This document shows positions 23,214 to 61,981 of a DNA stretch of 64,000 nucleotides, piece after piece. Numbering within the stretch: the first letter of the stretch is position 1; each line of letters starts with the position of its first letter. The translations under genes and the position numbers were made by a program. The DNA comes from Flavobacteriia bacterium. Its GTDB lineage: Bacteria > Bacteroidota > Bacteroidia > Flavobacteriales_D > Crocinitomicaceae. Below the pieces are notes generated by a model. The model was not told where the DNA came from, made no database searches, and saw only the letters and a program-made list of their open reading frames with translations. The DNA is taken from assembly GCA_947490145.1 (NCBI GenBank), contig CANLGD010000002.1, positions 1 through 64,000 on the forward strand. Direction: 5' to 3'.

Positions 23214-25142
23214 ATGCAAGTAAGCTCTAAATTTCCATATTGTGAAAATTATTTTTCTAGAATAAAAAATCCAACGATAGAAATTACCATCGGAAATTTA
23301 AAACTTGGTGAAGAAAATCCGATTCGAGTTCAATCGATGACTACAACCGACACAATGAATACCGAAGGATCTGTAGAACAATCCATTCGAATGATAGATG
23401 CTGGTTGTGAATTGGTTAGACTAACAGCTCCAAGTAAAAATGAAGCAATTAATTTGGGCGAAATTAAAAGAATATTGAATGAAAAAGGATATTACGCTCC
23501 TTTAGTAGCTGATATTCATTTTACGCCAAATGCAGCAGAAATAGCTGCTAAATTAATTGAAAAAGTTAGGGTAAATCCGGGGAATTATGCTGATAAAAAG
23601 AAATTTGAAGAAATTGATTACACGAATGATTCTTATGAAAAAGAACTAATTAGAATAGAACAAAAATTTACACCTTTAATAAACATTTGCAAAGAATACG
23701 GCACAGCAATGAGAATAGGAACAAACCATGGCTCGCTGTCAGATCGGATTTTAAGCCGTTTTGGTGATACACCCGAAGGAATGGTGGAATCAGCTATGGA
23801 ATTTTTGCGTATTTGTATAAAGAATGATTATCATAATTTAGTCATTTCCATGAAGGCTAGTAATACTTTAGTGATGGTTCAAGCTTATAGATTGTTGGTT
23901 TCCACAATGAAAAAAGAGGGAATGAAATTTCCTTTACATTTAGGTGTTACTGAAGCTGGCGATGGCGAAGATGGAAGAATAAAATCGGCTGTAGGTATTG
24001 GAGCATTGATGGAAGATGGTTTGGGAGATACGATTCGAGTTTCTTTAACAGAAGATCCAGAATTCGAAATTCCAGTTGCCAGAAAACTAATTGAAAAGTA
24101 TGAAAACTATTCTAATGTTAAATTAGTTGAAACTAATAATAATTTAACTTATAATCCATTTGAATACAACAAAAGATTAAGTTTTGAAAATAAAAATATT
24201 GGAGGAAAAAATCATCCAATTGTATTTGCTGACTTGTCAAAAAAAGAAGAAATTAATCCTGCAAATTTTTTCGGTTTTGGTTATTCTTATTCTGTTCAAT
24301 TAGATAAATGGAATTTACAAGATTTGGCAGCAGATTATGTTTTTTTGGGAAATAAAGAGTTGAATTTTGAAATCCCTGGAACTTTAGGTGCAGTTTTTAA
24401 TGCTGAAATTTGGTCAGAAAAGTACCAAAAACAAAAACATTGTTTTCCAATTTTTAGCACAAAAAATATTCAAAAATTTGATGTTTCCAATTTAGACCTA
24501 TACTTTTTAGAACTTGATTTAAAACAAGATAATTATGAATTAATAAAATTAAATTCAAAAGCAATTTTAGTTGTAACTACAAAATTAGACAACAAGACAC
24601 AACTTTTGAGAAATTTTAGATGTCAATTGGATTTAAATAAAATTGAAAATCCTATTATCATAAAAACTGATTATGAGTCAAATGACTTAGAACGTTTTCA
24701 ACTTAATTCTTCGGCAGATCTTGGAATCCATTTTATTGATGGTTTTGGTGATGGATTGTGGATTACAGGTAATCATCCAATAAAAGATATTAATTCTTTG
24801 AGTTTTGGTATTTTACAAGCCACAAGAACGAGAATTTCAAAAACCGAATACATTTCTTGTCCATCTTGTGGAAGAACATTATTCGATTTACAAGAAACAA
24901 CACAAAAAATTCGCTTAAGAACTTCGCATTTAAAGGGTTTAAAAATTGGAATCATGGGTTGCATTGTAAATGGACCTGGAGAGATGGCTGATGCAGATTA
25001 TGGTTATGTTGGAACTGGACCGGGAAAAATAAATTTATACAAAGAAAAAACTGTTGTTCGCAAGAATGTTGATGAAAGTAATGCTGTAGATGCTTTGATT
25101 GACGTGATCAAGGAAAATGGGGATTGGATTGACATTAAGTGA
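23214..25142 (+). CDS. ispG: 4-hydroxy-3-methylbut-2-enyl diphosphate synthase, long (insert-containing) form
   Basis: 642 residues, far longer than the roughly 370 of the E. coli enzyme, as in plants and Bacteroidota. The N-terminal TIM barrel shows VQSMTTTDTMNT, LVRLTAPS, VADIHFTPNAA, VRVNPGNYA and HLGVTEAGDGEDG. A middle insertion of about 230 residues (about 325-550) follows, then the 4Fe-4S domain with CPSCGR and GCIVNGPGEMADADYGYVG. It makes HMBPP in the penultimate step of the MEP isoprenoid pathway, and ispD later in the window belongs to the same route. The start at 23214 follows the -7 box; the longer upstream frame encodes an unlikely hydrophobic leader. Confidence 0.95.
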   Translation: MQVSSKFPYCENYFSRIKNPTIEITIGNLKLGEENPIRVQSMTTTDTMNTEGSVEQSIRMIDAGCELVRLTAPSKNEAINLGEIKRILNEKGYYAPLVADIHFTPNAAEIAAKLIEKVRVNPGNYADKKKFEEIDYTNDSYEKELIRIEQKFTPLINICKEYGTAMRIGTNHGSLSDRILSRFGDTPEGMVESAMEFLRICIKNDYHNLVISMKASNTLVMVQAYRLLVSTMKKEGMKFPLHLGVTEAGDGEDGRIKSAVGIGALMEDGLGDTIRVSLTEDPEFEIPVARKLIEKYENYSNVKLVETNNNLTYNPFEYNKRLSFENKNIGGKNHPIVFADLSKKEEINPANFFGFGYSYSVQLDKWNLQDLAADYVFLGNKELNFEIPGTLGAVFNAEIWSEKYQKQKHCFPIFSTKNIQKFDVSNLDLYFLELDLKQDNYELIKLNSKAILVVTTKLDNKTQLLRNFRCQLDLNKIENPIIIKTDYESNDLERFQLNSSADLGIHFIDGFGDGLWITGNHPIKDINSLSFGILQATRTRISKTEYISCPSCGRTLFDLQETTQKIRLRTSHLKGLKIGIMGCIVNGPGEMADADYGYVGTGPGKINLYKEKTVVRKNVDESNAVDALIDVIKENGDWIDIK

Positions 25143-25304
25143 TGAGTTTTGAACGATGAGTTATGAGCGTTGCGTATGTAGTAACTAAAATAAGTTATTA
25201 GTTGAATATTTATCCATAACTTAATAATCATAATTCATAACTATTTACATTTTTTTCACTTTTATATGTTGATATAATAAGATTATTATTAATTTGGCAC
25301 TTGT

Positions 25305-25967
25305 ATGATAGCAAAAGATTTAATAACAGACGAAATCCCTCCGTTGAAGCACACAGATACTGGTGAAACTGCTTTACGTTGGATGGACGAATTTAAGGTT
25401 TCACACCTTCCTGTTTTGAAAAATGATAATTTTGTGGGTTTAATTTCGGAAAGTGACATATTGGATAGACAAGATTTAGAGCAATCTTTGGATGTTTTGT
25501 TTGATCATTTGCCTAGACCTTATGTAAAGGAAAATGCGCATATCTATGAAGTTCTTTTCAAGGTTGCTGAACATAAAATTTCTGTAATTCCAATTCTTCA
25601 TGAAGACGAAACCTATGCAGGTTGTACAAGTATTCATCAATTAATCATGTTGATTGCAAATACGGGAAGCATAAAAGAAACGGGTGGAATAATTGTTTTG
25701 GAAGTAAATGAAATTGATTATTCTTTGGCTCAAATTGCACAAATCGTTGAGAGTAATAATGCGAAAATTTTGAGTTCTTACATATTTTCTTCACCAGATT
25801 CTACAAAACTAGAAGTAACTTTAAAAATTAATAAAATTGAATTGGATAGTATAATTCGAACTTTTGAACGATACGATTATATAATAAGTGCTTCCTATCA
25901 AAAAAGTAATTCTGATGAAGATTTACAGATGAGGTATGATGCCGTAATTAATTTTCTCAAGTTCTGA
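25305..25967 (+). CDS. CBS-domain protein with ACT-like C-terminus
   Basis: 220 residues. Two CBS repeats (about 1-60 with HLPVLKNDNFVGLISESDIL, and about 68-125 with ISVIPILHEDETYAGCTSIHQLI) are followed by an ACT-like segment (GGIIVLEVNEIDYSLAQIAQIVESNNAKILSS). CBS pairs bind adenylates such as AMP, ATP or SAM and usually regulate. From family knowledge this gene precedes nadK in many Flavobacteriia, as here (153 bases apart), which suggests a role tied to NAD(P) or envelope synthesis. The last nine codons form one arm of a perfect 26-bp palindrome, and the stop codon lies in its loop. Confidence 0.88.
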   Translation: MIAKDLITDEIPPLKHTDTGETALRWMDEFKVSHLPVLKNDNFVGLISESDILDRQDLEQSLDVLFDHLPRPYVKENAHIYEVLFKVAEHKISVIPILHEDETYAGCTSIHQLIMLIANTGSIKETGGIIVLEVNEIDYSLAQIAQIVESNNAKILSSYIFSSPDSTKLEVTLKINKIELDSIIRTFERYDYIISASYQKSNSDEDLQMRYDAVINFLKF

Positions 25968-25995
25968 AAAACTTGAGAAAATTAATTACGGCATC
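25938..25995 (+). repeat. Perfect 26-bp inverted repeat spanning the CBS gene stop codon
   Basis: Left arm 25938-25963 and right arm 25970-25995 are exact reverse complements, separated by the six bases CTGAAA. The left arm is coding (DAVINFLK of the CBS protein); the TGA stop (25965-25967) is in the loop. There is no long T run afterwards, so it is not a standard terminator, although an RNA hairpin this strong should halt or protect transcripts. Confidence 0.95.
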
Positions 25996-26034
25996 GAAGA
26001 TTGCAGATTATAAATTGCTTCGCATTGCAATCTA
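25996..26034 (+). repeat. Dispersed palindromic repeat, family R2, copy 1
   Basis: GAAGATTGCAGATTA is followed by a TTGCTTCGC block and ends in TGCAATCT, which pairs with AGATTGCA at the start. A 37-base stretch matches the R2 copy at 61.88 kb closely (GAAGATTGCAGATTA-[TC]A-[AG]-ATTGCT-[TC]-CGC). It sits between the CBS gene palindrome and nadK. Confidence 0.7.
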
Positions 26035-26120
26035 TTTTAAATTAAGGTGTCTAAAATTAAATTATGGATTTATAAAAATCTAGTCTAAAGTCTTTTCTCT
26101 AATAATCTAAAAATCTAATT

Positions 26121-26999
26121 TTGAATATAGCTATATACGGTAGAAAAATTTCCAAGCAAAATACCTCCTATTTTGAAAACATTCTAAAAACACTTGACGT
26201 ATTGGGTTGGAATGCTGTTTTGGAAAAAGATTTAAAGGATCAACTTGAAAAAAAGGTTGGTATTTCTGATAAATACAAAACCTTTGAAACTTTCCACGAT
26301 TTAAAAAAAGGAATTGATTTGGCTGTAAGTGTAGGTGGTGATGGAACTTTCATTCAAATGGTAAAATACGTTCGGGATAGTGAAGTTCCAATTACTGGAG
26401 TTAATATGGGACGTTTGGGATTTTTAGCGAATGTGAATCCAGAAAATTTTGAACTAACGATGCAAATGGTGAAAGACAAAAAGTACGAATTCCAAAAACG
26501 TTCTTTGCTGAGAGTTCATACAAATGAAGACCTATTTGGAGAAGACAACATTGCCTTAAACGAAGTTACTTTGCACAAAAAAGATACTTCATCCATGATT
26601 ACAGTTCATGCAAGTTTGAACGATAATTATTTAAATTCTTATTGGGCAGACGGCTTGATTGTTGCAACACCAACTGGTTCAACAGCTTATAATTTAAGTT
26701 GTGGAGGACCAATTATCACTCCGGGTTGTCAAGTTCACATTCTTACTCCAATTGCACCGCATAATTTGAATGTTCGACCAATGGTTGTTCCGGATAATTT
26801 CCCCATAAAATTAAGCATTGAAGGTCGCGATCGAAAATACCTTATTAATTTAGATTCTAATTCAAAAAGTATTGCTCAAGAGGAAGAAGTAACTATTACC
26901 AAAGCAGAATTTTTAATAAATGTTGTCAAATTTGATGATAATAATTTTTTAGATACGATTAGAAATAAGATGTCTTGGGGAGTTGATAAGAGGAATTAG
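26121..26999 (+). CDS. nadK: NAD kinase
   Basis: 292 residues. The NAD kinase signature VSVGGDGTFIQM (G72-T76, with catalytic D74), GVNMGRLGFLA, NEVTLHKKDTSSM and WADGLIVATPTGSTAYNLSCGGPII are all present. It phosphorylates NAD to NADP in the cytoplasm. The start is a TTG at 26121; no ATG is available that keeps the family N-terminus (IAIYGR). The TTG is the end of a TAATTTTG sequence that looks like a -7 box, which would put the transcription start after the start codon, so that match is probably accidental. A 470-base gene-free stretch follows. Confidence 0.95.
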   Translation: MNIAIYGRKISKQNTSYFENILKTLDVLGWNAVLEKDLKDQLEKKVGISDKYKTFETFHDLKKGIDLAVSVGGDGTFIQMVKYVRDSEVPITGVNMGRLGFLANVNPENFELTMQMVKDKKYEFQKRSLLRVHTNEDLFGEDNIALNEVTLHKKDTSSMITVHASLNDNYLNSYWADGLIVATPTGSTAYNLSCGGPIITPGCQVHILTPIAPHNLNVRPMVVPDNFPIKLSIEGRDRKYLINLDSNSKSIAQEEEVTITKAEFLINVVKFDDNNFLDTIRNKMSWGVDKRN

Positions 27000-27469
27000 T
27001 AATTTACTTTTTTTAAAAACATTCTCCAAAATAATTTCTTTCCCAATTCAATCTCAGATTTAAAAGGGAAAGGCATGATGATTCAGTTTACAAATGGTAA
27101 ATCAAGACATCAATCTCTGTTTGATTATTAATTCTTGTTAAGAAAACCATAAATGTTCAGATTTGAAAAAGGAAAGAGAAGAACACGAAGTCTCAGCGAA
27201 GCTAAATAGCGGGTTATTTAAAGATTTTTTATGAAAAAGAATTCCAATAAGTAGAACAATGAATCCAATTTTGAAAAAGACTTTAGGGCGTCAGGCTCTA
27301 TTACGACTGAAAATTTAAGACTAAAACTTTGTGAAATATTAAATTTTTATTTAAAGTGATATAGTCTTGACTTGTGACCTTTGAACGCCTATTTCTATTT
27401 TATTAAATCTTTCATCTAAATTAGGTCAAAGTTTAAATATCTTAAAGCCCTAATATCCAGATATTCAAC
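27000..27469. other. Gene-free stretch after nadK
   Basis: 470 bases with no open frame of coding quality on either strand. Short readable pieces occur (for example EEHEVSAKLNSGLFKDF on the plus strand near 27175) but are broken by stops and match nothing I know. A GC-richer patch (27290-27320, GGGCGTCAGGCTCTATTACG) stands out from the surroundings. It may be decayed coding sequence. Confidence 0.5.
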
Positions 27470-28051
27470 TCATCCATGTATCGTTTCCTCTTTTCCATAT
27501 CGAGAAATCACTTCAGACTCAAAAGTAAGCCATTCGTTCCATCGTTTATTCACATCCACTTTTTCTGCATATTTGCGAGCAAACCCAATAAAAGTGCTGT
27601 AATGTCCAGCCTCACTAACCATTAAATCGTAGTAAAATTTTGACAATTCTGGGTCTGAAATTCTTTCTGAAAGCAATTTGAATCGTTCACAACTTCTTGC
27701 TTCAATCATTGCTGAAAATAACAAACGATCAACCAAACGTTGTTGTTTACTTCCGCCAGTCATCATAAATTTATACAATTCGTTAACGTAACTGTCTTTT
27801 CGCTCGGCTCCCAAAACAAAACCTCGTTTTTTGATTAACTCATGAACCAATTGAAAATGTTCGATTTCTTCCTTTGCCAAAGCCAATAGATCGGTCACTA
27901 ATTCTTCGTGTTCTGAATTATTCGCAATAATTGTGATAGCGTTTGTTGCAGCTTTTTGCTCGCACCAAGCGTGATCGGTCAAGATTTCTTCAATATTTGA
28001 TTCAACAATATTTACCCATCTTGGGTCTGTGGTAAGTTTTAATCCTAACAT
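27470..28051 (-). CDS. miaE: tRNA-(ms[2]io[6]A)-hydroxylase, MiaE-like
   Basis: 193 residues, a ferritin-like four-helix di-iron protein. The iron ligands are seen as E in ILTDHAWCEQKAA, EExxH in LAKEEIEHFQLV, E in MIEARSCERF and ExxH in VSEAGHYSTF. LKLTTDPRWVN at the start and SAMIEARSCERFKLL are diagnostic for MiaE, which hydroxylates the isopentenyl group on A37 of tRNAs. The dimethylallyl donor comes from the isoprenoid route to which ispG and ispD belong. It has its own -7 box upstream, so it is transcribed separately from the acyltransferase gene. Confidence 0.93.
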   Translation of the reverse strand: MLGLKLTTDPRWVNIVESNIEEILTDHAWCEQKAATNAITIIANNSEHEELVTDLLALAKEEIEHFQLVHELIKKRGFVLGAERKDSYVNELYKFMMTGGSKQQRLVDRLLFSAMIEARSCERFKLLSERISDPELSKFYYDLMVSEAGHYSTFIGFARKYAEKVDVNKRWNEWLTFESEVISRYGKEETIHG

Positions 28052-61345: not shown

Positions 61346-61861
61346 ATGAAAACCCTTTTTTTTGGAATTTTATTCTCAGCACTCTCAGCACAATTTGTAG
61401 CTCAAGAAACTCATATTGAAAATATTAAGAAACTTCCTTCAGTGAAATTGAAAGATATGGAAGGAAACGATATTAATACCGCTGAATTAGGCGTAAAAGG
61501 TCCAATTATTTTTAGTTTTTGGGCAACTTGGTGCGCTCCTTGTAAAAGAGAACTAAATACTATTCATGAAGTTTACCAAGATTGGGTTGAGGAAACTGGT
61601 GTTACATTAGTTGCTGTTTCGATAGATGATGAAAAAACAAAAAATTCAGTTCCTGTTTACGTAAATGGAAAAGCTTGGGATTATATGGTTTTGATGGATT
61701 CAAATTGGGATTTCAAAAGAGCAATGGGTGTAAACAATGTTCCGCACACTTTTTTAGTTGATGTTGATGGAACTATCGTTTATTCACACAATAGTTATTC
61801 TCCTGGAGATGAAGATTTATTGCATCAAGAATTATTGAAATTAGTAAAAAAAAGTAATTAA
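61346..61861 (+). CDS. TlpA-like periplasmic thiol-disulfide oxidoreductase
   Basis: 171 residues. Signal peptide (MKTLFFGILFSALSAQFVAQ), then a thioredoxin fold with the redox motif FWATWCAPCKREL (WCAPC, about 60-64), VTLVAVSIDDEK, MVLMDSNWDFKRAMGVNNVPHTFLVDVDGTIVYSHNSY (cis-Pro in VPHTF). It probably reduces or oxidises exported proteins. The next two genes are a DUF6029-like outer-membrane protein and an Omp28-like lipoprotein with its own CxxC, so the three may form one redox or surface module. Confidence 0.93.
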   Translation: MKTLFFGILFSALSAQFVAQETHIENIKKLPSVKLKDMEGNDINTAELGVKGPIIFSFWATWCAPCKRELNTIHEVYQDWVEETGVTLVAVSIDDEKTKNSVPVYVNGKAWDYMVLMDSNWDFKRAMGVNNVPHTFLVDVDGTIVYSHNSYSPGDEDLLHQELLKLVKKSN

Positions 61862-61876
61862 ACATAAATTACAAAT

Positions 61877-61940
61877 TGGAAGATTGCAGATTACAGATTG
61901 CTCCGCTTTCAAATTAATTTTCTTGAAAGCGAAGCAATCT
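61877..61940 (+). repeat. Dispersed palindromic repeat, family R2, copy 3
   Basis: The left arm AGATTGCTCCGCTTTCAA (61895-61912) and the right arm TTGAAAGCGAAGCAATCT (61923-61940) form an 18-bp inverted repeat with a single mismatch, loop of 10. It is preceded by TTGGAAGATTGCAGATTACAG, shared with R2 copies 1 and 2. It sits in the 120-base gap between the TlpA-like and DUF6029-like genes. Confidence 0.85.
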
Positions 61941-61981
61941 TGACAATTTTACAATCAAGACAATTTTTACAATCCTAAAAT

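Follow-up and report, generated by a model that had tools for sequence, protein, structure and literature searches.

A perfect 26-bp palindrome around the stop codon of a CBS-domain gene in a Crocinitomicaceae genome, and its probable origin by template switching

A perfect palindrome with 26-bp arms encloses the stop codon of a CBS-domain protein gene in a Crocinitomicaceae MAG of an apparently freshwater bacterium, and comparison with related genomes indicates that it is lineage-specific and recent. We hold, with middling confidence, that an imperfect palindrome made up of the gene end and the end of an adjacent dispersed repeat (R2) was perfected by replication template switching. Template switching in general, which also takes in a simpler fold-back event discussed below, is in our judgement quite probable.

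Geometry and rarity of the palindrome

The CBS-domain gene (25305..25967, + strand) codes for a protein of 220 amino acids (Pfam CBS, E=6e-12), and its final 27 coding nucleotides lie inside the palindrome. All palindrome features are given on the + strand. The left arm, GATGCCGTAATTAATTTTCTCAAGTT (25938-25963), is coding and comprises DAVINFLK plus two nucleotides of the final F codon. The 6-nt loop CTGAAA (25964-25969) holds the TGA stop codon at 25965-25967, and the final 11 nt (25985-25995) of the right arm, AACTTGAGAAAATTAATTACGGCATC (25970-25995), coincide with the 5′ end of the R2 repeat. The two arms are exact reverse complements at 26/26 pairs, confirming the palindrome described in the initial annotation of this DNA. 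The accompanying view that such a structure is hard to obtain by chance also held: arms of at least 26 with a spacer up to 40 are expected about 1e-6 times in the 3.08-Mb genome on base composition, and the longest arms in ten order-2 Markov shuffles of the window (the whole 64-kb stretch analysed, 30.6% GC) were 10-14. The runner-up perfect arm in the window itself is 11 (spacer up to 20).

The palindrome scan covered 518 kb of the MAG (the window and 454 kb of other stretches, about one sixth of the genome), in which this is the longest perfect palindrome. The runners-up have perfect arms of 21, 20, 19 and 19 (spacer up to 40), and these 19-21 arms are copies from two dispersed repeat families. 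A second dispersed palindromic repeat besides R2, with arms AGATTCAAAAGTCAAGACT / AGTCTTGACTTTTGAATCT, was seen at L040:10496-10552, L040:7625-7701 and L039:16424-16470 (contig C2 of this MAG). The palindrome sequence is present in a single copy in the genome; with no second copy and no element, it was rejected as an attachment site of an integrative element. A genome-wide class of gene-end palindromes was likewise rejected, as only 3 of the 22 perfect palindromes in the 518 kb (arms of at least 12, spacer no longer than 15) span a stop codon, and the other two have 12-bp arms. A shorter natural parallel is found at L148:2893-2926, a 12-bp perfect hairpin across a stop codon with 22 coding nucleotides inside.

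Fold-back chimeras are a known library artefact and the MAG is a 127-contig draft, both of which speak for a snap-back chimera introduced in library preparation or assembly. However, the contig runs unbroken from CBS through the palindrome and R2 to nadK, with the genes ordered as in the sister species, a chimera would need to be dominant and correctly rejoined, and the left arm itself differs from that of the sister. We therefore regard an artefact as very unlikely.

Distribution among relatives

By annotation, the related loci come from MAGs of Crocinitomicaceae, Fluviicola and Flavobacteriales, many of them apparently freshwater. The nearest genome is that of a sister species (G003), whose CBS protein is 99% identical and whose CBS gene is about 92% identical in DNA (50 differences in 660). 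The sister gene has the same last codon, a TAA stop and a different spacer; no palindrome is present at its end, which folds no better than shuffles (z +1.2). Among 71 loci of relatives taken from genome_contigs, of which about 69 had a correctly placed gene end, no such palindrome was found; within 45 nt of the stop, perfect arms reached at most 10. The check proposed in the initial annotation, whether close relatives lack the right arm, thus came out as a recent copy event would have it, with the sister and some 69 other relatives lacking the arm, in a comparison that includes one genome of this species.

The downstream gene, nadK (NAD kinase; 26121..26999, + strand), follows the CBS gene after a spacer of 153 nt. 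In most relatives nadK starts about 0-45 nt after the CBS stop, the two genes nearly abutting, and among close relatives the spacer has grown only in the pair formed by this MAG and its sister. The apparent nadK start codon is TTG in both members of the pair and ATG in most relatives. The palindrome is thus confined to this lineage and of recent date, which speaks against a regulatory role maintained by conservation. On the comparison with the sister and some 69 other relatives, we rejected the reading of it as a conserved regulatory hairpin.

Overlap with the R2 repeat

R2, a palindromic element about 80-105 bp long, is dispersed in some 30-40 copies per genome in this MAG and its sister, with the structure ATTACAAATTGGCAGATTACA...GATTGCTTCGCTTTC...GAAAGCGAAGCAATCTGTAAT... 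(example copy, 61868-61960). Its core occurs exactly in both of these genomes and is absent in 3/3 other congeners, and R2 looks like a young REP/MITE-like family. Mobilization by an adjacent RAYT-like transposase was rejected, as two Y1-transposase matches have no strong R2 copy within 1.5 kb. At 4879-5157 of contig C106 of this MAG (L239) lies a small transposase of the Y1 type, whose 192-aa open frame makes it RAYT-like in size and which has no R2 copy within 1.5 kb.

Next to the palindrome, a degenerate, partial R2 copy (25985..26036, + strand) was detected with nhmmer at E=1.3e-8 using a profile from which the window copy had been excluded. It represents the left half of the element, the matching right half being absent. 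The initial annotation had placed R2 directly after the palindrome; R2 does adjoin it, but its 5′ end overlaps the right arm at 25985-25995. Only 25985-26036 aligns to R2, and the palindrome as a whole, being single copy, was rejected as a member of the R2 family.

The outer end of the right arm is ungapped and in register with the R2 5′ end. The first bases of R2 are ATTAC or ATTGC, and in 52 of 56 other arm sequences from the two genomes, a count in which both ends of one copy may figure, the next six are A(A/G)ATT(G/A). The copy at 61861 on the same contig reads ...AATTAC-AAATTG-GAAGATTGCAGATTACAGATTGCTCCGC, and the window copy ...AATTAC-GGCATC-GAAGATTGCAGATTATAAATTGCTTCGC. ATTAC is kept, and since it is in register with other R2 copies such as that at 61861, 25985-25989 is probably the R2 terminus. 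At 25990-25995, GGCATC stands in place of the consensus AAATTG/AGATTG with the length unchanged, and is the exact complement of GATGCC in the CBS gene. Read against the other copies, this points, with moderate strength, to a six-base in-register replacement within the R2 end. When the R2 profile was carried on into the right arm, the score rose by only 2.1 bits (23.5 versus 21.4), a small gain because ATTAC is short and AT-rich, and the inferred R2 overlap is accordingly held at moderate strength. Near the R2 copy at 61861, the R2 start (AATTAC) likewise has an inverted match in the end of the upstream gene (AGTAATTAA), so that 61846-61885 is possibly an imperfect palindrome of the precursor kind postulated below.

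Synonymous changes in the left arm

The left arm (25938..25963) shows five differences from the sister in 26 nt, all synonymous (GCA/GCC, TTC/TTT, TTG/CTC, AAA/AAG), and a level of five differences is reached by just 7 of 635 overlapping 26-nt windows of the CBS gene. It carries the rarer codons GCC (9.5% of alanine), CTC (2% of leucine) and AAG (12.8% of lysine). Of the 8-codon windows in 363 ORFs, 98% use commoner codons than the eight of this arm, with the sister version at the median. The clustering of synonymous changes is only an event of about 1-2%, and its polarity comes from few close relatives. The ACTTG that follows the CBS stop also stands just after the stop in the sister spacer, to which the right arm shows some similarity (shuffle p=0.03). 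Taken together, the synonymous cluster, the rare codons and the shared ACTTG suggest that the gene end was itself rewritten, in its inner part, from the spacer side.

Origin of the palindrome

The simplest account of 26 perfect pairs and a 6-nt loop is a single fold-back, in which a short AACTT/AAGTT match would have let the nascent strand fold just past the stop codon. Some 21 nt of the gene end would then have been copied in inverted orientation before synthesis resumed in the R2 copy. Such one-event changes have been described (PMC8794818), and the lineage restriction of the palindrome fits them. However, a plain fold-back leaves the cluster of rare synonymous codons in the left arm without an account, as it does the exact register of ATTAC with the R2 terminus, which would be a coincidence of about 1 in 450 (an estimate for ATTAC at a fixed offset by base composition). 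We consider it a serious alternative of lesser probability, differing from the quasi-palindrome account only in that ATTAC and the left-arm changes would be coincidence.

In the quasi-palindrome account, an R2 copy would have come to sit directly after the CBS stop codon. The R2 end together with the adjoining spacer (AAATTAATTAC) would by chance have been the reverse complement of the gene end (GTAATTAATTT), giving an imperfect palindrome whose right arm, before correction, would have held the intact R2 start ATTACAAATTG. During replication the nascent strand would then have folded back on the core and copied the opposite arm, which would have replaced A(A/G)ATTG in R2 by GGCATC at unchanged length. 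CTC-AAG-TT was probably also written into the gene end, synonymously and with the protein left intact, and the outcome would be the perfect 26-bp stem. The perfect arms, their confinement to one lineage, the register with R2, the GGCATC replacement and the synonymous cluster are observed; from them we infer the ancestral sequence, the number, order and direction of the events and the polymerase mechanism.

Because the sister spacer differs and the ancestral spacer is not preserved, the precursor that we evaluated is a construct, combining the sister left arm with the R2 consensus. It has an 11-bp uninterrupted core, is complementary at 17 of 26 positions and folds as an imperfect hairpin of -9.7 kcal/mol. 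In E. coli, template switching is reported to turn quasipalindromes into perfect or more nearly perfect ones (PMC7202029), and a single such event is described as sufficient to produce a perfect stem (PMC8794818). The pattern seen here is of that kind: the arms are perfect in this genome while relatives lack them, and the clustered in-register changes (GGCATC and the inner left-arm cluster) are the complement of the partner arm. Template switching, which the initial annotation had put forward, is thus retained as the best explanation for a lineage-restricted arm, but a plain copy of coding sequence is probably an incomplete picture given the R2 overlap and the altered left arm.

RNA structure and possible effects on the mRNA

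As RNA, a 131-nt stretch is predicted to fold at -48.1 kcal/mol (z -8.5), and the palindrome as a DNA fold gives z -12.9, in both cases with the stop codon in the loop. A weaker secondary hairpin (AGATTGCA...TGCAATCT; 25998..26033, + strand) is predicted in the R2 copy. No terminator-like site was found in 25000-27500, and the stem is directly followed by GAAGATTG; lacking a U-tract, it does not qualify as an intrinsic terminator of the canonical kind. Nor was there an Rfam match at gathering score, and a known RNA family was rejected. The suggested roles of the stem as a transcription stop, as protection of the mRNA 3′ end or as a block to read-through consequently found no support: it has neither a U-tract nor conservation, and CBS and nadK nearly abut without a hairpin in most relatives.

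A perfect stem of 26 bp is the sort of double-stranded RNA that RNase III cuts. As the genome also encodes this enzyme, the mRNA may be cut between CBS and nadK. One could accordingly suppose a selected hairpin, a stem built or kept for an action on the mRNA, such as an RNase III site or a 3′-end barrier separating CBS from nadK. The high stability of the RNA, the RNase III gene and the growth of the CBS-nadK spacer in this lineage favor this reading. Against it, no relative, the sister included, has a comparable hairpin there, a U-tract and any terminator-like match are lacking, and at 26 bp the perfect stem exceeds in length the terminator-like hairpins seen in this genome. We think selection improbable, and any effect on the mRNA would be a by-product of mutation, without sign of selection.

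Returning to the quasi-palindrome account, a more general proposal, which we offer tentatively, is that a repeat arriving beside a stop codon may seed a quasi-palindrome that replication perfects in both directions in one mutational step. If true, synonymous sites in the last codons of the host gene would be overwritten and a new mRNA hairpin created, a route by which small dispersed repeats could make new 3′ structures and may help mutation to build hairpins. Read as a product of template switching, the palindrome records a short switch, fixed in nature in an uncultured bacterium, that left the protein unchanged while giving its mRNA a perfect 26-bp stem. It is also a case of a strong hairpin that sits where a gene ends without being a conserved terminator.

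Comparison with known systems

Intrinsic (Rho-independent) terminators likewise place a hairpin at the 3′ end of a gene, but the stem described here has no U-tract on either side, is much longer, starts within the coding region and is absent in relatives. Small palindromic intergenic repeats of the REP/MITE-like kind are represented by the adjacent R2, a dispersed palindromic element, whereas the 26-bp palindrome itself is single copy and is not an R2 hairpin. Other parallels are found among products of template switching. RNA hairpins attributed to this process (PMC8794818) share a perfect stem that is confined to one lineage and implausible by point mutation; those cases concern RNA genes, while the present one concerns the stop region of a protein gene with no known RNA function. 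In the quasipalindrome mutations of E. coli (PMC7202029), multi-base changes in register, taken from the other arm, similarly perfect an imperfect repeat. The E. coli changes were found in selected revertants, whereas here the sequence is natural and fixed and its precursor is reconstructed; moreover, the palindrome joins a coding arm to one that falls in part within a dispersed repeat. The mutational process is already known, and the palindrome is a clean example of it, with the overlap of coding sequence and repeat as its uncommon twist.
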